Below, in pieces: positions 48,377 to 60,347 of a stretch of 64,000 nucleotides of DNA. The stretch lies in assembly GCF_003667345.1 (NCBI RefSeq), contig NZ_RCWF01000010.1:1-64000 (forward strand), read 5' to 3'. The translations under genes and the position numbers were made by a program. Each line of letters begins with the position of its first letter. Positions within the stretch are counted from its first letter, which is position 1. This stretch comes from Poseidonibacter antarcticus (GTDB lineage: Bacteria; Campylobacterota; Campylobacteria; Campylobacterales; Arcobacteraceae). The notes under the pieces were generated by a model. The model was not told where the DNA came from, made no database searches, and was given only the letters and a program-made list of their open reading frames with translations.

Positions 48377-49717
48377 TTATTTTGCCCCTACTTTTGATAG
48401 TACAACATTAATTGTTTTCATAAAAATTACAAAATCCATCCATAATGACCAATTTTGGATATACCATTTATCAAGTTCTATTCTTTCTTTGAAAGTTAAT
48501 TCATTTCTTCCACTAACTTGCCAAAGCCCTGTAATACCAGGTTTTACTTTTAAGATAGTATCTTCATTTATTTTACCTATTTTTGCTTTTTCATTTAGCA
48601 TATAAGGTCTAGGACCTATTAAATTCATATCACCTCTTAAAATATTAAAAAATTGAGGAAATTCATCTAATGATGTAGCTCTTAAAAATTTACCTATTTT
48701 TGTAATTCTAGGATCGTGTTTATATTTATGATAGATATTATAATACTCTATTTCTTCGGAATTTTCTTTTAAATATTTATCTAAAAGTTCATTTCCATTT
48801 ATATACATAGTTCTATATTTATAACATCTAAAAATTTTTCCATTTTTCCCAAAACGCTTTTGTTTAAAAAAAACAGTACCTTGAGAATCAAGCTTAATCA
48901 CAATAGCTATAAAAAGATGTAAAAGTAATGCAAATGGTAAAATACAAATAACTAAAGATTTTTCAAAAACATATTTAATAAGTATATTTTTGAAATTTAA
49001 CAATCTATTTTCAATATGAATAGCAGATAATCTAATATTAAAATAATCTACTACATTTGTATGTGAAAAATCTAAGTGATACATATAAGGAATAATATAC
49101 ATATCTCTTGTTCTTTTTGAATGTATTTTAATGATTTTTTCTAATTTTTTAATTTCAAAATTTTTTGAAGATATAAGAACTATATCATATCTTTTTTTTG
49201 ATATTTTAAAACCAAAATACCAGTTTTCAATCATTTCATTACATAATGTTTCATATTGTGAGGAGTTTGCAATTATTTTTACTTTTATTTTAAAAATATC
49301 AAAACGAAATAAAAATCTCTTAAATAACCTTTTTGAAAAAGGAATTAAAAAAGCAGATATTAAAAAGAATATTATTATAAAACTTCTTGAATAATCATTT
49401 GATATTTTTGCAAAAGTCATAACTGTAAAAACAGCTATAAAAGATAAAATCAAGCCTTTAAAAACTCTTTTTGTATCAGCCCAAAAATCATATCGTATAA
49501 AATAAATTTTTTCTAAAATAAAAATAAAAAGTACAACTAAAATTATCCAATAATAATTGCTAATATTTGAAGCAATAAATTCTGGCATAGTATTTGTTGG
49601 GATATCACTTCTTAGATACTTACTTATTTCCAAAGAAAAAAGTAAAATAAGAAAATCCATACTAAGTAATAAAAACATATATATTGTAGTTGATAGATTA
49701 AATTTATTTATTTGCAT
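48377..49717 (-). CDS. Polyprenyl-phosphate sugar-1-phosphate transferase (WbaP-like)
   Basis: Initiating glycosyltransferase that loads a sugar phosphate onto undecaprenyl phosphate. Four or five N-terminal helices (to about residue 125), a soluble middle region, one re-entrant helix (about 247-270) and the catalytic domain: QKRFGKNGKIFRCYKYRTMY, RATSLDEFPQFFNILRGDMNLIGPRPY and PGITGLWQVSGRNELTF. Length 446 is that of the large WbaP/WcaJ class. It closes the gmd-rmd-GT-GT gene run, so it probably starts the glycan those genes build. Confidence 0.9.
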   Translation of the reverse strand: MQINKFNLSTTIYMFLLLSMDFLILLFSLEISKYLRSDIPTNTMPEFIASNISNYYWIILVVLFIFILEKIYFIRYDFWADTKRVFKGLILSFIAVFTVMTFAKISNDYSRSFIIIFFLISAFLIPFSKRLFKRFLFRFDIFKIKVKIIANSSQYETLCNEMIENWYFGFKISKKRYDIVLISSKNFEIKKLEKIIKIHSKRTRDMYIIPYMYHLDFSHTNVVDYFNIRLSAIHIENRLLNFKNILIKYVFEKSLVICILPFALLLHLFIAIVIKLDSQGTVFFKQKRFGKNGKIFRCYKYRTMYINGNELLDKYLKENSEEIEYYNIYHKYKHDPRITKIGKFLRATSLDEFPQFFNILRGDMNLIGPRPYMLNEKAKIGKINEDTILKVKPGITGLWQVSGRNELTFKERIELDKWYIQNWSLWMDFVIFMKTINVVLSKVGAK

Positions 49718-49741
49718 AAATCATTATACTTTATTTTATAA

Positions 49742-50836
49742 TTAAATTTGTTTAATTTTACTATCTACAAATAATTTAAACTCTTTTTTAAATCGTTCTT
49801 GGCTATATTTTTTTGATAATAAAGATATTTTTTTATAATCAAAATCCATAAGTTCAAACCTTTTAATAGCATCAATAATATCTTCACAAGTTTGTTTTTG
49901 AAAATGAACACCATTTACTCCATCAATTACAGTTTCAGCTGTTCCACCATCGTTTAAAGCAATAACAGGCGTACCACAAGCTTGCGCTTCAATAGGAACT
50001 ATTCCAAAGTCTTCAATAGCTGCATATACAAAAGCACGAGCTTTTTGCATATACTTTATCATTTCATCAAACTCTTGATAACCTAAAAGTACAATATTTT
50101 CTTTTGCTATTTTTTTAATTAACTTATATTCTTCACCATTTCCAATTACCACTAGTTTTTTATTTGGCATTTGATTAAAAGCTTCAACTATTAATTTTGT
50201 TTTTTTATATGGAACTAATCTACATGCAGTTAGATAATAATCTTCTTTTTTTTCATTTAAAATGAATTTGTTTGTATTTACAGGTGGATAGATTACTGTA
50301 GATTCTCTTTTATAAGTTTTATCTATTCTTTTTTGTACAAATTCTGAATTTGCAATAAAAAAATCAACTCTTGATAAAGTTTTTATATCCCATTTTCTTA
50401 ATCTTTTTAAGGTTTGCTCTACTAGAATTTTTTTGGGTTGTTTTATATTTGAAGTATATTCATCATATAAATCCCATGCATAACGAATAGGAGTATGACA
50501 ATAAGATATATGAATCTGTGAAGGTGCAGTTTTAACACCTTTTGCAACAGCCCATGAAGAAGAAATTATTAAATCATAAGAAGATAAATCAAAACTTTCA
50601 ATTGCTTTTGAGAATAAAGGTAAATAGTTTCTAAAATGATTTTTTGCAAAAGGAAGTTTTTGTATAAAAGAAGTTTTTACTATTTTTTCATTTATTACAT
50701 CTTTTCTATTCTTTTCATTTAAAAAGTCAACTAAAGAAAAAATATCAGAACTTGGATAAATATCTATTATATTTTTCAGAACTTTTTCAGCACCTGCATT
50801 TGTAACAAGCCAGTCGTGTATTATTGCTATTTTCAA
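49742..50836 (-). CDS. GT4-family glycosyltransferase
   Basis: A 364-residue retaining glycosyltransferase (GT-B). N-terminal IIHDWLVTNAGAEKVLKNI (nucleotide-sugar-independent acceptor domain with the GAEK motif), and the C-terminal EX7E motif within EDFGIVPIEAQACGTPVIAL (about 279-298). Its ATG overlaps the previous gene's stop by 4 bases. With the neighbouring GMD/RMD genes, a D-rhamnosyl or mannosyl donor is the likely substrate; this is inferred from context. Confidence 0.88.
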   Translation of the reverse strand: MKIAIIHDWLVTNAGAEKVLKNIIDIYPSSDIFSLVDFLNEKNRKDVINEKIVKTSFIQKLPFAKNHFRNYLPLFSKAIESFDLSSYDLIISSSWAVAKGVKTAPSQIHISYCHTPIRYAWDLYDEYTSNIKQPKKILVEQTLKRLRKWDIKTLSRVDFFIANSEFVQKRIDKTYKRESTVIYPPVNTNKFILNEKKEDYYLTACRLVPYKKTKLIVEAFNQMPNKKLVVIGNGEEYKLIKKIAKENIVLLGYQEFDEMIKYMQKARAFVYAAIEDFGIVPIEAQACGTPVIALNDGGTAETVIDGVNGVHFQKQTCEDIIDAIKRFELMDFDYKKISLLSKKYSQERFKKEFKLFVDSKIKQI

Positions 50837-51951
50837 TTTTTTAAAACTTCTTCAAATAAATCAAGATGTTCTTTTGCTGATTTTTCCCATGAAAACAACT
50901 TTGCTCTTTTAAGTCCTTTTTCTATCATCCTAGTTTGTAATTTTGTATCATTTAACACCAATTCTATTTTATCTTTTATATCTTTTATCTCATAAGGATT
51001 ACAATATACAACAGCATCTGCACCAACTTCTGGTAAAGAAGTAGTATCACTACAAATAACAGGAGTTCCACAAGCCATAGATTCAAGAATAGGTAAACCA
51101 AAACCTTCATAAAAAGAAGGAAATAAAAAACAAGAGCTAAGATTGTAAACTTTTGCAAGTTCAATATCAGAAATAAAACCAAGATAAATAATATTTTCTT
51201 TGTTTTTATTTATAATATTCATTATCTCTTTATTTTCCCACCCTTTAAACCCAGCCAGAACAAGCTTATATTCATTTTTTATATTATCTGATAAAAGATT
51301 ATATGCTTGTAATAATCCAATCAAGTTCTTTCTTGGTTCTATACTTCCAACACTAAATATAAACTTCTTAGGAATTTCAAAATCCAATTTTAAATCATTA
51401 TGAATTTTAAATAAATTATGGTCTATTCCATGATAAATTACTTTAATTTGCTCGTCTTTAAAATCTAATCTTTCCAAAATCTCTTGTTTAGAAAATTCTG
51501 ATCCTGTAATAAGCATATCGCTTCTAATTATATTTTTGAAAAAATACTTTTCAAAATATTCTATTCTTTCTTTTGGATGGAAATCTTTATGTAATATAAA
51601 TGAAAAGTCATGTACTGTTGTAATAGTTTTCTTTGCTTTTATACCTTCATTTGGTATAAAATTAGGTTGCCAATAAAGATCATAAGATGGAACAAAAAAT
51701 CTACTAGAAACTCCTATGATTTTTCTTGCTACTTTTTTTAATATTTGACTTTTCGATAAAAGTTTCTTCAATATTTTCAAATCTCTTTTATCCGTAGATT
51801 GAATCAATGTTTTACTATAATATCCATAAAAGAAACTACTTTGAATATCTTTGTTCTTTTCTATTTTTTTAGCAATTGCATAAGTATATCTACCAATTCC
51901 AGTTAAAGGAGATAATAAAGAAATACAATCAATAAGAATCTTAGGCTTCAT
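50833..51951 (-). CDS. GT4-family glycosyltransferase
   Basis: A 372-residue GT-B retaining transferase: LLSPLTGIGRYTYAIAKKI near the N-terminus (the SPxxGIGRY pattern is that of mannosyl/rhamnosyl GT4 enzymes), FSVGSIEPRKNLIGLLQAY at the interdomain site, and PSFYEGFGLPILESMACGTPVICSD carrying the EX7E motif. It overlaps the reductase gene upstream by 11 bases and the next GT by 4, showing a tightly coupled operon. Confidence 0.9.
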   Translation of the reverse strand: MKPKILIDCISLLSPLTGIGRYTYAIAKKIEKNKDIQSSFFYGYYSKTLIQSTDKRDLKILKKLLSKSQILKKVARKIIGVSSRFFVPSYDLYWQPNFIPNEGIKAKKTITTVHDFSFILHKDFHPKERIEYFEKYFFKNIIRSDMLITGSEFSKQEILERLDFKDEQIKVIYHGIDHNLFKIHNDLKLDFEIPKKFIFSVGSIEPRKNLIGLLQAYNLLSDNIKNEYKLVLAGFKGWENKEIMNIINKNKENIIYLGFISDIELAKVYNLSSCFLFPSFYEGFGLPILESMACGTPVICSDTTSLPEVGADAVVYCNPYEIKDIKDKIELVLNDTKLQTRMIEKGLKRAKLFSWEKSAKEHLDLFEEVLKN

Positions 51952-52798
51952 ATAAGCCCTTTAAAGTATTTTCTATTTTATCTATTTTTATTTCACCTAT
52001 TAATTCAAAAAGTTTTTTTGAACTTCCACATAAAGTTTTTATTTCATCTTTTCGCACAAAAGCAGGATTTACTAAAACTTTTATTTCATATCCTGATATT
52101 TTATTCATTAGTTTTATTACATCTAAAAGTGCAATAGGATTTTGTGAAGCTATATTTACTATTTGGCTTTTTTCTTTTGTTATAAGTAACTTAGAATAAA
52201 CCTCACAAACAAAATTAACATCATTAAATTCTCGTTTTACATCTAAATTACCCAATTCTATTTCTTTTTTATTCTCTTTAAAGTGAGAAACAATTTTAGG
52301 TATTAAAAAATGTTGGGCTTGTCCTATTCCTGTATAATTAAAAGGTCTTGTAATAATTATTGGTAATTTATTAAAATATCCACTTGCTAAACATTCCATA
52401 GAGTATTTACTAGCTCCATAATGATTAGCTGGCTTTGGACAAAGAGATTCATCTAATACTTCTTTACATTGATTTCCATATATGGTTGCAGAGCTTGAAA
52501 GTATAATATTTTCTACTTTTAAATTTGTTTGTAAAATTGCATCAAGTAAGTTTGTTGTTCCAATTGTATTGATTTTATAAAAATCTTCATTGTTTTTATG
52601 TGCAGCAAAAGATATTCCAGCTAAATGAATTATAAAATTTGGTTTAAATTTATTTAATACATTTACAATATCTTCTTTATTTGTAATATCACAAGTTTTT
52701 GAAGTAGTACCTACTACTTCAAAATTCTTCTCTTTTAGATATTTTTCTAAGTGTTTTCCTGTGAAACTATTAATTCCAGTTATTAAGACTTTTTTCAT
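51941..52798 (-). CDS. rmd: GDP-6-deoxy-D-mannose reductase (Rmd-like)
   Basis: Short-chain dehydrogenase/epimerase of 285 residues. NAD(P)-binding GINSFTGKHL (residues 7-16), catalytic serine/threonine region LSSSATIYG and the YxxxK pair in YGASKYSME (about 148-156). Together with GMD immediately upstream it should reduce GDP-4-keto-6-deoxy-D-mannose to GDP-D-rhamnose; a reaction to GDP-L-fucose is less likely because the epimerase-reductase WcaG is larger. The assignment depends on the GMD pairing. Confidence 0.8.
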   Translation of the reverse strand: MKKVLITGINSFTGKHLEKYLKEKNFEVVGTTSKTCDITNKEDIVNVLNKFKPNFIIHLAGISFAAHKNNEDFYKINTIGTTNLLDAILQTNLKVENIILSSSATIYGNQCKEVLDESLCPKPANHYGASKYSMECLASGYFNKLPIIITRPFNYTGIGQAQHFLIPKIVSHFKENKKEIELGNLDVKREFNDVNFVCEVYSKLLITKEKSQIVNIASQNPIALLDVIKLMNKISGYEIKVLVNPAFVRKDEIKTLCGSSKKLFELIGEIKIDKIENTLKGLYEA

Positions 52799-52801
52799 TT
52801 A

Positions 52802-53836
52802 TTAAAAAGAAAAACCTATTTCATTTCTTCTTAAATCTTCTTTTACCATCATTGCACATAATTCTTCAAGTGTACACTTAGGTTCCCATCCTAATTCATC
52901 TTTTGCTTTTTGTGGATTTCCAATTAGAAGTTCAACTTCAGCTGGTCTATAAAATTTTGGATTTACTTTTACTAAAGTTTTTCCTGTTGCTTTATCTACT
53001 GCTATTTCATCTTCAGCTTTTCCTCTAAATTCAACTTCAATTCCAACTGCTTTAAAAGACATTGTTACAAAATCTCTTACTGTTTCAGTTCTATTAGTTG
53101 CAAGTAAAAAAGTGTCAGGTTTAGGAGCTTGAAGCATAAGATACATTCCCTCAACATAATCTTTTGCAAAACCCCAATCTCTTTTTGCATCCATATTTCC
53201 AAGTTCTATATGATCTAATTTCCCAAGTTTTATTTTTGCTACACTATCTGTGATTTTTCTTGTTACAAATTCTTGACCTCTTAATGGTGATTCATGATTA
53301 AAAAGAATTCCACTTGTTGCAAATATATCATAAGCTTCTCTATAATTTACTACCATCCAATGTGCATACATTTTTGCAGCTCCATAAGGACTTCGTGGCC
53401 AAAATGGTGTTTTTTCTGTTTGTGGAATTTCTTGAACATCACCAAACATTTCAGAAGTACTTGCTTGATAAAATTTAATTTTAGGATTTACAATTCTAAT
53501 AGCTTCAAGTAAATGAACACAACCAAGACCTGTAATATGAGCTGTTGCAATTGGTTGTTCAAAAGAAACTCCCACAAAACTTTGAGCTGCTAAATTATAG
53601 ATTTCATCAGGTTTAATATCAGCTACCATTCTAATACTATTTGATTGATCAGTTAAATCATATTCTACTAAATGTAAGTTTTCATGATTTTTAATTCCTA
53701 ACTCTTCAATTCTCCAAAAATTAACAGAAGAAGTTCTTCTATATGTACCATAAACATCATAACCTTTTTCTAAAAGTAAGGCAGCTAAATAAGCTCCATC
53801 TTGTCCTGTAATACCTGTAATTATTGCTTTTTTCAT
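52802..53836 (-). CDS. gmd: GDP-mannose 4,6-dehydratase
   Basis: Converts GDP-D-mannose to GDP-4-keto-6-deoxy-D-mannose. The Rossmann motif [14 protein letters not shown] is at residues 8-21, [12 protein letters not shown] (about 37-48) binds NADP, and [19 protein letters not shown] contains the catalytic YxxxK. Family blocks [18 protein letters not shown] and [17 protein letters not shown] (about 289-305) are present. Length 344. It begins 25 bases after the tolC-like gene on the same strand, so the sugar pathway may be co-transcribed with the secretion system. Confidence 0.94.
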
Positions 53837-53861: not shown

Positions 53862-55115
53862 TTATAATGCTAAATTTAGATTTCCTGCTAAGAATTTAAG
53901 TCTTAGATTTATTCTTAGTTTTTCATATTTAGCTTCAATTATTTTGTGTTTCTTTTCTGCAAACATAAATTCTACTTCTGCTAAATCAACTCTATTTTTT
54001 AAATTTTTCTCAAAACTTTTTAATATAGAATTATAATATATTTCAGTATCTTTTATAGCTGAACTATAAATCTCGATTTTTTCAACTTGTATTTCTTTTA
54101 ATAACATAAGCTCTTCATACTCATTTTTTGTTTGCTCAATTTTATCAATAAAATCCATTTTTGAAGCTTCATAAGATAATCTATTTTGCTCAATCTTAGC
54201 ATTAGTACCTCCACCTTCATAAAGTGGTATTTTTAATTCAAATAATATTCTTTTATCTGTTTCATAATCATCAATATAATTATTTGAATCATATTTTGTA
54301 TAATTTGCTCTTAATGCTAATACGGGATAATGTCCAGTTTTAGATGTTTCTACTCTTTGTTTAACTAAATTAATTCCAACTTTTCCACCTTTTAGTTTTA
54401 AGTTATCAAGAAGTAATTTATCAAATTCATAATTTACATCATAACTTTCTATATCTTTAACTTCTTCAAGACTATCAACTTTTTTATTCATAAAATGATG
54501 AAGTTTTAATTTTTCTAATTTTAGATCATTTTTATATTCATTTAACTTAATATAAATATCATTATAATCCAATTTCGATTTATCTAATTGATTTTTAGCA
54601 AGTAGATTTAGTTTATACATCTTTTCAAATTGAAGTCTTTTTGTTTCATAGTATTTTAACTCTTTTTTCGTAGTTTCAATTAAACTTTTTGAAATCAATC
54701 CATCAATAAAAACATCTATAGCTGATAAAGCTGTTTCTTGTTTTTTTTCTTCTAGAAGTATTTCTTGCAATTTCATATCATATTTAGCCTCTTTTATAGA
54801 AGAATAAATAGATCCATCATATATAGATTGAGAAAGAGAAAATTCTAAACTATTATAATTTTCTTTTTCTGTTCTTTGGATTTCAGTATTTGTTAAATAA
54901 GATCTATTTGACTTAGTCAAAGTAGAACTAATATTAGGATATAATCTTGCTTTTTGAATATCTAAATCTTGCTTTCTTGATTCAGTATCATAATAATTAG
55001 TTTTAATAGATTCATCATTTTGTAAAGTAAATGAATAAACATCTTTTAATGAAATTCCAAATGAAAGTATAGGAATAATCGTTAAAATGGGGATATATCT
55101 TAATTTATTTTTCAT
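53862..55115 (-). CDS. Outer-membrane channel of type I secretion (TolC/SapF-like)
   Basis: A 417-residue TolC-family outer-membrane efflux protein. Signal peptide at 1-22. The two helical hairpin repeats (about 24-215 and 225-410) show the heptad pattern of periplasmic alpha-barrels; [17 protein letters not shown] and [23 protein letters not shown] are the paired repeat openings. It follows the membrane-fusion gene by 2 bases, giving the ABC-adaptor-TolC order of a dedicated type I system, as in sapDEF. Confidence 0.88.
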
Positions 55116-55117
55116 TA

Positions 55118-56425
55118 TTATTCCTCATTAAATGCTCTACTAATCATATCAACAAATGGCTTAATCAAATAACTAAGAGTAGTTCTATTTCCTGTTTTTA
55201 TCATAGCTTCAACTGGCATACCAGGAAGTAAATAAAATCCATTTTCTTTAAGTTGTTTTTTACCCTCTTCTGTTAATATTAATTTCACTTCATAATAAGA
55301 TGATCCACTTTGTTCATCAACAAAAGCATCTGCTGAAATATTTATAACTTTTGATTCTACTGTATACGTTTGTTGAGTATTAAAAGCTGAAAATCTAGTA
55401 TCTGCTAATAACCCTACTTTTAATTTATCAATATCTTGAGTTTGAGCCTTTGTTAAAATAAATAAATCACTGTCTTTTGGAACAATACTTAATATTGGTT
55501 TTGAAGAATCTATTACACCACCAATCGTATGAGCACTTAAGCCAATAATATAACCTGATACAGGAGCTGTAATATTAACTCTTTTTAATTGATCTTTTGA
55601 AATTGTAATTTTTGATTGTAAATCAACTTTTTTTAAATCATACTCAACAATACTATTTAAAACTTCATTTTGAAATTCTTTATTTTTTAATTCTTGTTGA
55701 CCTTTAACCTCTTCAATTTGTGCATATAATCTTTTTTTATCAGATAAAGAGTTTTGAATATCACCTTTTATTTTTATCTCTTCTCTTCTTAACTCTTGTA
55801 GTTTTTGAATATCAACTAATCTTTGAGCAAATAATTCTTCTTGTGCACTAATATCAGTTGATATTGATTTTAATCTATCTTTATTACTTTTTATAATAGA
55901 GTTTAAACCTGCAATCTGATTTTTAGATTGCATTATTTTTTGTTTACTTATTAATTCTTCTTCTTCTACTGATCTTAGTTTAGATCTTAAAATATTAGTT
56001 TGACTATCTATAATAGTTTTTATACTTGCTTCATCTTTTTTATCTAATAACTCTTTAGGAAAATGTATAGTTAAACTTTTGTTTTTTTGAGCTTCAAGTC
56101 TTGCAGCTGCTGCTATTACACCATAATATTGATTTTGATTTGTTCTTAAACTTGATTCTATTTGAGTAGAGTCTAAAACAATTAATGACTCGCCTTTTTC
56201 TACAAAATCACCATCTTTTACCAAAATCTCTTTTATTATTCCACCTTCATAATGCTGAACAGTTTTTTTATTCGTATCAACTGAAACTTCACCAGCTGAT
56301 ACAATAGATATTGCTAAAGGAGCAAACGCCATCCAACCAAAAAATAATCCAAATACTATAAAAAGAACACTAAATCCAAATTTTATAATATTATTTGGAT
56401 TACTTATAATCTTATCATTTTCCAT
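55118..56425 (-). CDS. HlyD-type membrane-fusion protein (SapE/PrtE-like)
   Basis: A 435-residue adaptor. One N-terminal transmembrane segment (about 15-41), then the barrel-sandwich opening GEVSVDTNKKTVQHYEGGIIKEILVKDGDFVEKGE (about 41-75), a long coiled coil (about 85-285) and the closing ITAPVSGYIIGLSAHTIGGVI lipoyl half. C-terminal PGMPVEAMIKTGNRT is characteristic of HlyD/PrtE. Its ATG overlaps the ABC gene stop by one base. Confidence 0.92.
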   Translation of the reverse strand: MENDKIISNPNNIIKFGFSVLFIVFGLFFGWMAFAPLAISIVSAGEVSVDTNKKTVQHYEGGIIKEILVKDGDFVEKGESLIVLDSTQIESSLRTNQNQYYGVIAAAARLEAQKNKSLTIHFPKELLDKKDEASIKTIIDSQTNILRSKLRSVEEEELISKQKIMQSKNQIAGLNSIIKSNKDRLKSISTDISAQEELFAQRLVDIQKLQELRREEIKIKGDIQNSLSDKKRLYAQIEEVKGQQELKNKEFQNEVLNSIVEYDLKKVDLQSKITISKDQLKRVNITAPVSGYIIGLSAHTIGGVIDSSKPILSIVPKDSDLFILTKAQTQDIDKLKVGLLADTRFSAFNTQQTYTVESKVINISADAFVDEQSGSSYYEVKLILTEEGKKQLKENGFYLLPGMPVEAMIKTGNRTTLSYLIKPFVDMISRAFNEE

Positions 56426-58167
56426 TAATTAGCTCCTGGTTTACTTAATTGTATTTTAGGTTTTACTTTATTTTCAAGCCCTTTTACAGCAGGTTGAGAC
56501 ATCCCTAGTTTTTGTAAAACTTCTTGTGTAGGACCATATAATTCTACTTTTCCATCTTTCATATATGCAAGTTTTGTAGTTGCCATTAAAACATTTCTTT
56601 TATGAGTAATAAGAATAACAGTAGTTCCTCTTTCTTTTAATGCTTTAAGTGCTTCAACTAATGCTAATTCACCAACATCATCTAGATTTGAATTTGGTTC
56701 ATCTAAAACTACAAGTATAGGATCATCATATAAAGCTCTTGCTAATGCAATTCTTTGTTTTTGACCACCTGAAAGTGAAGAAGAATTTATAACTGTGTCA
56801 TAACCATCTGAAAGTTGTAAAATCATTTCATGAACACCAGCCATTTGTGCAGCTTTAACAACTTTTGTTGAATCTACTTCTGTAAATCTTGCAATATTTT
56901 GAGCAACAGTTCCTTCAAATAATTCTATATCTTGAGGTAAATATCCTATGAATTTTCCTAAAAACCCTCTATCATATTGTTTAATATCTGCTTTATCAAG
57001 TCTTACATTTCCATTATTTAATGGCCAAATACCTAATATAGCTCGAGCTAAACTTGATTTACCAGCGGCACTAGGTCCAATAATACCTACTATTTCACCT
57101 TTATCAATTTGAAGATTTACACCAAAAAGAGATGGTTTTGTAGCTTTTGGTGGAACTAAAACTATATTTTCAACACTAATTTCACCTACAGGATCAGGAA
57201 GTTGCATATACTCAATATCAGCTGGCGAATTTTCTAAAAGTTCATCTATTCTTTTATATGATGTTCTTGCACTTGAAAATTGTTTCCATGTATTTACTAT
57301 TAAATCCAAAGGAGCTAAAGCTCTTCCTAAAACAATAGAACCAGCAATCATCATACCAGGAGTAACTTCATTTGTAATAGCCAAATATCCACCTAAACCT
57401 AACATAAGTGATTGAAACATCATTCTTAATGTTTTTGTACTATTTGTCCAAATTGATGCATTTTCACTTGCAATAGTTTGTTGAGTTAAAAAATCATCAT
57501 GTTTTTCTTTCCATGTCTTTTTTATACTAGGTAACATACCCATAGCATGAATAACTTCTGAATTTCTAATATTTGATTCTACAAAAATAGAAGTACCTCT
57601 ATTGGCTGCATTTGCTCTTCCTAAAGGTTCTTTTGTATGTTTTTCATTTATATAAGTTACAATTACTAAAACAGTTGCTGCAAATATTGCAAAATAACCA
57701 TAATAAGGATGAAATATAAAAAGAATTCCTAAATATATAGGAAACCATGGAGCATCAAAAAAAGCAAATAGACCATTTCCTGTCATAAATTGTCTCATTT
57801 GCGTTACATCAGAAATAGGAGAAGAAGTAGCTCTTGCTGGATCTTTATTTGCTTGATAAAATATTGAATCAAATACTCTAACAGTTAAAATATCATCAAT
57901 TTTATTACTAAGTCTTACTATAATTTTTGATCTTGTTATTTCTAAAAGAGACATAGTAATAAATAGTATTACAACAATCATTGTTAATAAAATCAATGTA
58001 TCTACACTTTTACTAGTTACAACTCTGTCATATAGTTGTAACATATATAGGGGTGGAACTAACATTAAAAGATTGATAAAAAAACTAAAAAATCCTACTA
58101 TTAAGAAATACTTTTTTAGTTTAAAAATAGAATCTTTTAATTCTGAGATTTGACCAGGTTTTTGCAT
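56425..58167 (-). CDS. Type I secretion ABC transporter (PrtD/SapD-like)
   Basis: A 580-residue ABC exporter half-transporter. Six-helix membrane domain (about 15-310) without an N-terminal C39 peptidase-like domain, as in PrtD-type RTX/S-layer exporters. ATPase domain: Walker A GPSAAGKSSLARAI (about 362-375), signature LSGGQKQRIALARAL, Walker B ILVVLDEPNSNLD and the H-loop ITHKR. It follows the RAYT-SapC gene by 10 bases. The exported substrate is not encoded in the window. Confidence 0.93.
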   Translation of the reverse strand: MQKPGQISELKDSIFKLKKYFLIVGFFSFFINLLMLVPPLYMLQLYDRVVTSKSVDTLILLTMIVVILFITMSLLEITRSKIIVRLSNKIDDILTVRVFDSIFYQANKDPARATSSPISDVTQMRQFMTGNGLFAFFDAPWFPIYLGILFIFHPYYGYFAIFAATVLVIVTYINEKHTKEPLGRANAANRGTSIFVESNIRNSEVIHAMGMLPSIKKTWKEKHDDFLTQQTIASENASIWTNSTKTLRMMFQSLMLGLGGYLAITNEVTPGMMIAGSIVLGRALAPLDLIVNTWKQFSSARTSYKRIDELLENSPADIEYMQLPDPVGEISVENIVLVPPKATKPSLFGVNLQIDKGEIVGIIGPSAAGKSSLARAILGIWPLNNGNVRLDKADIKQYDRGFLGKFIGYLPQDIELFEGTVAQNIARFTEVDSTKVVKAAQMAGVHEMILQLSDGYDTVINSSSLSGGQKQRIALARALYDDPILVVLDEPNSNLDDVGELALVEALKALKERGTTVILITHKRNVLMATTKLAYMKDGKVELYGPTQEVLQKLGMSQPAVKGLENKVKPKIQLSKPGAN

Positions 58168-58177
58168 TTATTTTCCT

Positions 58178-59539
58178 TTATTGTTGTCTAGCATTTGCTA
58201 AATCAAATAATTTTTCTATATTATCAAGTGATTTTAAATGCTGTTCAATAAATTTTATTGTTCCATTTCTAACCCATTTAGCAAGTATAGAATCATCTAA
58301 AGCATGATATTTTTCTATATCTACAACTTTGAAGTTTTTTACTAAAATATTTTTAATTTCACCATCATTTACAGCGATTTCTCTTTCATCTAAAATACCA
58401 CTTTGAATTATCTCTTTTATAATATCTTGAGTTTTTTCTCTATTTTGCATAGAAGTTTTTAAAAAACTACCTATTTCATTTAATCTATCACTTGCGTTCC
58501 CCTCAGGTGTAAATAAAGCTTCGCCTTCTTCATATGATAAAACCTCTGATTTTTCATCAAATAATATTACTTGTTGTTCAACATTAGAAGGATGATTAAC
58601 CATTGAAAAAGGATGTTTTCTTATTTCATTTGGGATATAAGGAATTATCCATTTCCCTTGAGGATTTATAGCTAAATTCTCTCCACCTAAGGAAGTTAAA
58701 ATTAGAAGATTATCATAATTTTCACCTCCAAAAACTATTGGTAAAAATGGAGAAATCTTATCTAACTCTATTTCTAAGATAGGAATAGCTTGTAAGTTTT
58801 TTGCAAAATTTAAATTTTGTAACTTTTTAATTTTTAAATCTTTGTGTTTTACTTTATCTAATAACATTTTATTTCCATACATTTGTTTCCTTTTTGGAGG
58901 TCTTCCTTTTTTTTGTGTTACAAGTTTTAACCCTGTTAATTCTTCTAATTTAGCTATAAAGATATTACTACCTATAACTTCTTGTTTATTTATAGAATTA
59001 TCAAACCAAGAACTTATATATCTATCAAAAGATTGTTTGATTGCAAGTTGATATTTATTTACTCTATTTTCAGCACTAGAAGCTAAAGCTAAATATGATT
59101 TATGACTTATAATCAAATCGTCTTTTATATTTTTTGTATTTTTATCTAAACTATTTCTTTGTGATTTTTTTGATTCAATATGATGCATAAGTAAAAATAA
59201 AAAATTATCTACATCAACCAAAGATGCCTTATATCTTCCTTCCCATAGAGTTCCTGTACGAGTATACTTTTTATTAAAATATACAACATATCGTTTACTA
59301 AGGTTTTGAATAAATTTAGATAAAGTATTATCTTGTTTTGGTGTTGCTAAAAATTCTATAGTGTTAGAGGAAAAGCAGTAAGCATGTATATCTAAAAATA
59401 AATTTTTACTTAATTCTAATGCTTGATTATAAAAATAATTACAATCATCTACATCTTTAAAAAGCTCAATTTCATTTATAGCAGATATTTTAATATATTG
59501 AGGAATATCTTCTACAAAAACTCTTTGTTTTCTAGCCAT
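58178..59539 (-). CDS. RAYT transposase-like domain fused to SapC
   Basis: A 453-residue two-part protein from the ATG at 59539 (a longer start at 59605 would run into the preceding terminator). Residues 1-215 resemble REP-associated tyrosine transposases: MARKQR opening, D50-IHAYCFSSNTIEFLATP, RTGTLWEGRYKASLV, and the GRPPKR tail. The HUH histidines are replaced (N59-T60-I61-E62 for NHVH) and the catalytic tyrosine position (near 119-120) has histidines, so it should be inactive as a transposase. Residues 250-453 are SapC: FLPIVFGGENYDNLLILTSL, GKWIIPYIPNEIRKHPFSMV, and a helical tail. SapC precedes the S-layer type I exporter genes in Campylobacter fetus, and the exporter genes follow here by 10 bases. 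Confidence 0.85.
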   Translation of the reverse strand: MARKQRVFVEDIPQYIKISAINEIELFKDVDDCNYFYNQALELSKNLFLDIHAYCFSSNTIEFLATPKQDNTLSKFIQNLSKRYVVYFNKKYTRTGTLWEGRYKASLVDVDNFLFLLMHHIESKKSQRNSLDKNTKNIKDDLIISHKSYLALASSAENRVNKYQLAIKQSFDRYISSWFDNSINKQEVIGSNIFIAKLEELTGLKLVTQKKGRPPKRKQMYGNKMLLDKVKHKDLKIKKLQNLNFAKNLQAIPILEIELDKISPFLPIVFGGENYDNLLILTSLGGENLAINPQGKWIIPYIPNEIRKHPFSMVNHPSNVEQQVILFDEKSEVLSYEEGEALFTPEGNASDRLNEIGSFLKTSMQNREKTQDIIKEIIQSGILDEREIAVNDGEIKNILVKNFKVVDIEKYHALDDSILAKWVRNGTIKFIEQHLKSLDNIEKLFDLANARQQ

Positions 59540-59603
59540 AATAATCTTTATAATAAATTTTATGAAAGTATAGTGTAGAAAACTTAAATTTTGTTTAAAA
59601 AGC

Positions 59604-59645
59604 ACTCTGGCACTATTTAAATAAAAAATTTATTAGTACCAGAGT
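59604..59645 (-). terminator. Intrinsic terminator of the second sapC-like gene
   Basis: ACTCTGGCACTA (59604-59615) pairs with TAGTACCAGAGT (59634-59645) apart from one position, with an inner AT-rich part. On the minus strand it is followed by GCTTTTTAAAC. It lies between the second SapC gene and the RAYT-SapC gene, so the two are probably separate transcription units. Confidence 0.7.
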
Positions 59646-59666
59646 AAAGAGAAGTAATTATATTAT

Positions 59667-60347
59667 TTATTTTATAAGTTTTTCAATATTGCTTAATGAT
59701 TTTAAATGAGCATCAATAAAAGTTAAAATACCATTTCTAGCCCACGAAGCAAGTGTACTATCAGGTAATTCATATAATTTTTTTCTATTTACTATTTTAA
59801 ATCCTGAAATCAATGTTTTTTTAGCTTCTTTACTAGAAACAGAACCATTTTCTAATATTCCACTTTTATCTAACATATCTATAATTTTTTGTGTATGTAT
59901 TTCTTGTTCACTTGCTAAAAGTAATTGTTCTTTTATATCTTTTAGATATTTTGATTCTTCACCTTTTTTTGTATATAAAGGTTTACCTTTATTTTCATCT
60001 AAAAGTTCTGAATCTTTATCTAAAAGAATTATTCTTTCGTTTTTATTCTTTTCATTTACTATAGTTAAAAAAGGATATGTTTTTATAGAACTTGGTACAT
60101 ATGAACCTTTCCACTCATTTTTTTTACCTAAAGCTATATTTTTTACTCCATCAATAGAAATTATTGCTATTAAAGAAGTTTTTTCACCTGTAATAAAAAC
60201 GATTGGAAAATCTTTTGCAATTATGTCTGCTTCATTTGCAAATATATTTATTAGGTTTTGACTCTTTAGAAACTCATAAGACTTTACAGAACTTATTTTT
60301 AGATTCTGATGTAAGTTTTGACTTAATGCTTGTAAATTTTTTTGCAT
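59667..60347 (-). CDS. SapC-family protein (second paralogue)
   Basis: A 226-residue stand-alone SapC. It aligns end to end with the C-terminal half of the RAYT-SapC protein: FPIVFITGEKTSLIAIISID, W-x-x-SYVPSSIKTYPF, IILLDKDSELLDENKGKPLY and the closing DSTLASWARNGILTFIDAH and LKSLSNIEKL blocks correspond. No signal peptide or membrane helix. The ATG at 60347 has AAGG at 9 bases; an upstream start at 60386 lacks one. It ends in its own terminator and is divergent from a glycosyltransferase gene. The SapC function is unknown in any organism as far as I know. Confidence 0.85.
   Translation of the reverse strand: MQKNLQALSQNLHQNLKISSVKSYEFLKSQNLINIFANEADIIAKDFPIVFITGEKTSLIAIISIDGVKNIALGKKNEWKGSYVPSSIKTYPFLTIVNEKNKNERIILLDKDSELLDENKGKPLYTKKGEESKYLKDIKEQLLLASEQEIHTQKIIDMLDKSGILENGSVSSKEAKKTLISGFKIVNRKKLYELPDSTLASWARNGILTFIDAHLKSLSNIEKLIK

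Follow-up and report, generated by a model that had tools for sequence, protein, structure and literature searches.

Introduction

TIR-associated tyrosine transposases (TIRYTs) make up subclass 2.1 of TnpA-Y1 (PMC3733652, PMC6006769), and their terminal-repeat motif was published as GGGGWSAS in the same papers. Domesticated RAYTs are already known, the TnpA-REP proteins having been called the first domesticated prokaryotic transposases (PMC8266576). The REPs of the E. coli TnpA-REP protein are abundant and GTAG-tagged (4er8; PMC8266576). In Campylobacter fetus, SapC is encoded ahead of the SapDEF-type exporter genes, with DUF4214-like substrates (PMC4943207, PMC3887049). SapC itself is a nearly unstudied protein of S-layer export. 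Here we describe a gene of Poseidonibacter antarcticus, contained in a window of 64,000 nucleotides (the whole stretch of DNA that was analysed), in which a RAYT/TIRYT-like half is fused to SapC. To our knowledge, no RAYT has been described that is fused to a secretion factor, retains its terminal repeat as a single-copy site at its putative promoter and has a conserved internal start. A preliminary description, made from the sequence alone, had likewise known of no account of the architecture; our search of largely open-access literature gave no account of the fusion, nor of part of SapC deriving from a RAYT, nor of two products.

A transposase-like domain fused to SapC

The frame of the fusion gene is uninterrupted (Table 1), and a RAYT-like N-terminal half and a SapC C-terminal half, as proposed in the preliminary description, were recovered by Pfam, fold and profile comparisons. 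Pfam matched a full-length SapC domain (PF07277) to residues 227-444 (E 7e-49, profile positions 1-220) and Y1_Tnp (PF01797) to residues 39-111 at E 9e-5, which is exactly the curated cut-off. Alignment of the fused RAYT half to standalone RAYTs with hhalign gave a probability of 99.9. The AlphaFold model of the whole protein (pLDDT 84.8) has a pTM of 0.49, so the relative placement of the two halves is unsure. The RAYT half adopts the TnpA fold in this prediction: the best solved match found by Foldseek was IS608 TnpA (2a6m, E 2e-6), and E. coli TnpA-REP with its REP hairpin (4er8) matched at E 4e-5 with a target TM of 0.68. SapC was modelled at pLDDT 90.7, and a search with its fold among solved structures gave no significant match. 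A phmmer search of the PDB with the single fusion protein returned chance matches only, the NCBIfam search gave no family for it, PHROGs gave no match and the phage records searched held no relatives of the RAYT half. A frame error or chimera, the alternative named at the outset, is excluded by the many genomes in which full-length orthologs of 40-47% identity have an unbroken frame.

The alignment also bears out the reading that the HUH histidines are replaced by T60 and E62 and that the catalytic tyrosine is missing, its position being taken by a histidine. The window protein resembles TIRYTs in sequence, fold, C-terminal GRP+K motif and the GGGGTCAG-type terminal-repeat motif, but differs from them in being fused to SapC, in its conserved synteny and in the loss of catalysis in most fusions. 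From E. coli TnpA-REP, with which it shares the fold, it is set apart by the absence of HUH and tyrosine. As expected from the preliminary description, the gene stands in front of a type I secretion system: the ABC transporter gene starts 10 bp past the fusion stop and is followed by the HlyD- and TolC-type genes, which is the order of a sapCDEF-type operon.

Table 1. Features of the sap locus, in window coordinates.
Feature	Position	Strand	Basis or remark
TolC-type outer membrane protein, SapF-like	53862..55115	-	PF02321
HlyD-type membrane fusion protein, SapE-like	55118..56425	-	domain search
Type I secretion ABC transporter, PrtD/SapD-like	56425..58167	-	TIGR01842, 732 bits
rayt-sapC fusion gene	58178..59539	-	453 aa, ATG start
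SapC half, equal to the predicted short product from the internal start	58178..58882	-	234 aa
Internal ATG, predicted start of free SapC	58880..58882	-	
AAGGA, putative internal ribosome-binding site	58888..58892	-	29/30 genes and simulation
RAYT/TIRYT (Y1_Tnp) half, residues 1-217, C-terminal GRPPKR motif	58889..59539	-	Pfam, fold, profile
Catalytic tyrosine position, here His120	59180..59182	-	alignment
Former HUH site, residues T60-I61-E62	59354..59362	-	alignment
TATACT, -10-like box	59567..59572	-	conserved position
TTTAAG, promoter-like box	59583..59588	-	conserved position
TIR/REP-like hairpin, proposed operator	59601..59648	-	
sapC2, second SapC without RAYT half	59667..60347	-	directly upstream of the fusion; near fused SapCs in tree

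Distribution and phylogeny of the fusion

About 25 distinct fusions were found in Arcobacteraceae and in Sulfurimonas- and Sulfurospirillum-type genomes, and nearly all adjoin the same exporter genes. Of the 104 family genomes, seven encode a full fusion, the window genome among them; in one of these, G025, the alignment falls into two pieces but the frame is open. A SapC survey of 397 genomes of the phylum recovered frames of 455-477 aa in further families, which encode the same RAYT-SapC protein with exporter genes after it. A contig collection gave no match when searched with the single fusion protein, and searched with the alignment it yielded members in Poseidonibacter, Arcobacter, Aliarcobacter, Sulfurimonas, Sulfurovum and Sulfurospirillaceae. 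Single MAG contigs with the fusion are also labelled Odyssella, probably through misbinning, and Piscirickettsiaceae (L145), where a transfer outside Campylobacterota, or again misbinning, is possible. At L145 the ABC and HlyD genes are divergent from the fusion. A second fusion copy with the same upstream hairpin, broken by an assembly gap, lies at the end of contig 7 of G402 (L189).

The distinct non-Campylobacter fusions form one group, with support of 60/87 in the RAYT tree and 77/81 in the SapC tree. The latter tree places Campylobacter SapC and the window sapC2 beside the fusions; the other standalone SapCs, which share the SapC domain (PF07277) but have neither a RAYT half nor a hairpin match, fall outside. 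The RAYT tree gives the Campylobacter remnants a very long branch and an unsure placement. A constraint joining all fused rows without sapC2 gave an AU p of 0.066. A single origin of the fusions, though unproven, is compatible with these data. From its position close to the fused SapCs in the tree, sapC2 may have arisen by duplication and then lost its RAYT half.

Catalytic residues are lost to different degrees. Three Sulfurospirillum-type fusions (L094, L150 and L142), and only these, keep both HUH and tyrosine, with NH[VIL]H and YIES[NH]P aligned as in intact RAYTs; Y1_Tnp matched the two that were tested at E 3e-12 and 2e-13. Most other fusions read.[YFS]FE[FL] at the HUH site, with a near-invariant glutamate, and keep the tyrosine variably. 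The most conserved stretches of the RAYT half are not the catalytic residues but KF.Q.L...YV.Y.NKKY and GT.W.GR.K. The former lies within a predicted helix (residues 72-91), which is likely the counterpart of the hairpin-contacting helix of TnpA-REP (PMC8266576). The pattern looks like a loss of catalysis with retention of a presumed DNA-binding surface rather than plain decay. The preliminary description of a degraded domain therefore stands for the window protein but not as a one-off case: the fused protein is conserved in the order, some members still have intact catalytic residues, and erosion has gone further in Campylobacter SapC.

A predicted internal start within the fusion genes

The SapC half begins at a methionine where standalone SapCs start. 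At least AAGGA is present 4-12 nt before this internal ATG in 29/30 genes, including all seven Campylobacter ones, although the 30 genes are related and thus not independent. A simulation with synonymous codons for the same peptides (2000 runs) gave a mean of 4.5 and a maximum of 11 genes with AAGGA, and none of 201 other internal ATGs had such a site. The peptides encoded at AAGGA differ (K-D, K-G, K-R, Q-G), so the motif persists although the frame in which it is read varies, and this points to selection at the nucleotide level. In 27/32 distinct genes the outer start codon is TTG. Judged from this conservation, the fusion gene very probably also makes SapC alone from the internal start. Most simply, the ribosome-binding site of the original sapC gene would have persisted at the fusion joint, where it would continue to yield free SapC.

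A hairpin upstream of the fusion genes

An inverted repeat lies upstream of each fusion gene. All 25 distinct non-Campylobacter upstream regions have arms of the form ACTMTGGCACC and GGTGTCRGAGT around an AT-rich loop of 15-18 nt, mostly at about -106 to -63 from the fusion start. Arms were placed by their core motifs and the option that paired best was retained, a procedure that somewhat favours pairing and takes no account of relatedness. Arm pairing was 303/375 (80.8%) vs a mean of 277 upon random re-pairing between loci (0/10000), and a separate shuffle test of arm covariation gave 80.8% paired vs 74.0% shuffled (0/500). Pair changes on both sides were above the shuffles and far above slid versions.

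A covariance model run on the 104 family genomes reached E <1e-5 only at the seven fusion genes (next best E 0.005); as these seven sites were in its training set, the informative part is the absence of such matches elsewhere. A model built from the seven Arcobacteraceae sites only was run on 438 kb of other loci. Its matches with E <1 were all upstream of 17 fusion genes and of L099, a Campylobacter sapC locus; a second Campylobacter site (L098) followed at E 1.7, behind two chance matches, and the Piscirickettsiaceae-labelled locus was not found by this model. Rfam gave no family at the hairpin; its one match, below threshold and attributed to chance, lay at another place.

Plasmid-borne standalone TIRYTs of the same class have GGGGTCAG-type motifs upstream, several of them also the complement downstream, and the fusion hairpin matches these terminal repeats. 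Whereas the TIRYT motif forms flanking repeats, the fusion genes lack flanking REPs or terminal inverted repeats and have the cognate motif solely as a back-to-back upstream hairpin, the perfect pattern being single-copy in the genomes searched. Hairpin recognition is shared as a principle with E. coli TnpA-REP, but the fusion has one site per genome, without GTAG. A dispersed REP family was considered and rejected, given that the hairpin is single-copy and strong matches occur only at the seven fusion genes among the 104 genomes. In the window genome no standalone Y1_Tnp protein scored above the cut-off, which leaves the fusion as the only evident candidate for binding the hairpin there.

RAYT remnants in Campylobacter SapC

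Campylobacter-type SapCs (352-404 aa) precede exporter genes and are often near DUF4214-type or sapA-like genes. Pfam gave no match in the N-terminal part of the C. fetus-like SapC. In profile-profile comparison, however, the N-terminal ~140 residues of Campylobacter SapCs are colinear with the fused RAYT halves (probability 97.3, E 2e-11), and an independent comparison with standalone RAYTs gave 96.5 (E 1e-9). Controls remained low: column shuffles gave at most 0.8 and 21, reversed profiles 3.5 and 0.2, and an unrelated profile 0.8. By these alignments, Campylobacter SapC, including that of C. fetus type, carries a further degraded RAYT remnant.

The left half-site, ACTYTGGCACT, is present upstream of 6/7 Campylobacter sapC genes, and the first covariance model scored 5/7 of these loci at the half-site place, weakly (E 0.05-4.5). 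In Campylobacter, erosion of the hairpin goes along with that of the RAYT half. The C. fetus-like SapC shares a RAYT remnant and the internal start with the fusions, but its remnant is far more degraded and the hairpin is absent; unlike in other Campylobacter genomes, its gene also lacks the half-site. The genome in question (G256), very probably C. fetus, has several sapA-like genes with the same start, and sapC is adjacent.

A putative operator of the exporter operon

On balance, we favour the following explanation. A TIRYT-type (RAYT subclass 2.1) gene with its terminal-repeat motif would have landed directly upstream of sapC in a Campylobacterales ancestor, and the two genes would have fused in frame. 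The transposase half would then have lost catalysis in most lineages and kept a presumed hairpin-binding surface, and the terminal-repeat palindrome may have turned into a single-copy operator immediately in front of the sapC-exporter operon promoter. A scarce long form, with its TTG start in most relatives, would bind this operator and autoregulate the operon, and free SapC from the internal AAGGA-ATG start would serve in export. Since the long form and free SapC both carry the SapC fold, the state of export or substrate sensed by SapC could feed back on transcription; the fold search found no solved SapC-fold relative hinting at sensing. We consider somewhat probable the whole of this explanation, a domesticated transposase as autogenous regulator with free SapC as second product. 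It builds on what the sequences contain, namely the fusion, its synteny, the graded catalytic loss, the position and covariation of the hairpin, the promoter-like boxes and the internal start. From family knowledge and from the shared distribution and shared erosion of hairpin and RAYT half, we infer that the latter binds the operator; the direction of regulation, the coupling to export and the function assigned to SapC are likewise presumed. TnpA-REP proteins recognise hairpins in single strands, so that duplex DNA would have to be opened, or a cruciform extruded, for the operator to be bound.

The stretch from hairpin to start codon holds TTAAG-like boxes, concentrated at -60 to -43, and TATAAT-like boxes, which fall at -42 to -34 in 17/25 loci (vs at most 6 in any other 9-nt bin). 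With these boxes as promoter, the hairpin lies immediately upstream of it, where a DNA operator would be expected. The preliminary description had proposed a domesticated transposase acting as a nucleic-acid- or mRNA-binding module in control of an exporter or its substrate; the domestication agrees with our data, catalysis being lost and the presumed DNA-binding surface kept, whereas an mRNA target appears less likely than the DNA hairpin. Read-through or an upstream promoter could nevertheless place the hairpin in the sapC leader, where the RAYT half would bind it as RNA and govern either how the long form is translated or how stable the mRNA is. G-U pairs are frequent in the stem, the folding z-score as RNA is -3.8, and a sigma-70-like match (TTGAAA-18-TATAAT) upstream of the hairpin makes an RNA role possible in the window. 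Across loci, however, no conserved -10-like box was found upstream of the hairpin, the conserved boxes lie downstream of it in most loci, an upstream gene directly precedes it in many, and binding of single-stranded DNA is known for the family (PMC8266576). We therefore regard the RNA reading as unlikely, and the most likely target of the RAYT half, as far as sequence can tell, is DNA, the single-copy TIR-type hairpin upstream of its own promoter.

It is similarly doubtful that the hairpin serves otherwise, as terminator of the upstream gene or as site of an unrelated regulator, with the RAYT half a structural or protein-interaction extension of SapC. Inverted repeats often close transcription units, the window stem is followed by GCTTTTT, and the C. 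fetus-like SapC has a remnant without the site. A terminator was rejected, as none was called and the 15-18-nt loop and the absence of a conserved T run do not fit one; moreover, upstream genes vary by lineage, yet the hairpin keeps its spacing to the fusion start, its motif is shared with the ends of TIRYTs, and strong hairpin matches occur only with the fusion. A continuing role of the fusion as a mobile-element enzyme acting on DNA at the sap locus, such as the rearrangement of S-layer genes, is very improbable: HUH and tyrosine are intact in three Sulfurospirillum-type fusions, but the window protein and the majority of the others have lost catalytic residues, the perfect hairpin occurs only once even in one genome whose fusion retains them, and conserved synteny argues against movement.

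Under the autoregulator reading, one gene would code for both the regulator and the regulated factor. The combined proposition that a single-stranded DNA transposase turned into the autoregulator of an export operon, its terminal repeat becoming the operator, that a ribosome-binding site buried in the joint yields the export factor and that Campylobacter SapC is a worn-down descendant seems to us about evenly balanced between right and wrong. In the C. fetus-like genome at least, operator control must be gone, the half-site being absent. The stages of domestication stand side by side, as a fusion with intact catalytic residues, an inactive fusion, a worn remnant and what may be a RAYT-less duplicate. 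Because the presumed target site is preserved, the effect of transposase domestication on the host becomes testable with one protein and one hairpin. SapC gains an origin and a likely regulatory role, and these sapC genes appear to encode two proteins.

Genes around the fusion

A large candidate surface protein is encoded nearby. An ORF of 3533 aa with an N-terminal DUF4214 domain, in which it resembles the C. fetus-like SapA homolog, lies at contig positions 67004-77605 (L036:3004-13605), ~3 kb past the window end, and is likely the cargo of the exporter. Genes for a sensor kinase and a response regulator are located between this ORF and the sap genes. Standalone SapCs of the family (L045, L046, L047, L051, L054, L038) are often beside very large repetitive ORFs, which again ties SapC to large exported proteins. 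After the exporter genes, GDP-mannose dehydratase-type and other sugar genes (48377-53836) follow in the same order in several fusion genomes, which suggests a linked surface glycan. Just upstream of many fusions, a protein of ~150 aa is conserved (L088:11078-11530, with equivalents in L089, L090, L091, L094 and L150); the one member tested gave no Pfam match, and the protein shows the pattern M..IxAKTFTPxYD...DFMITRSFxL.
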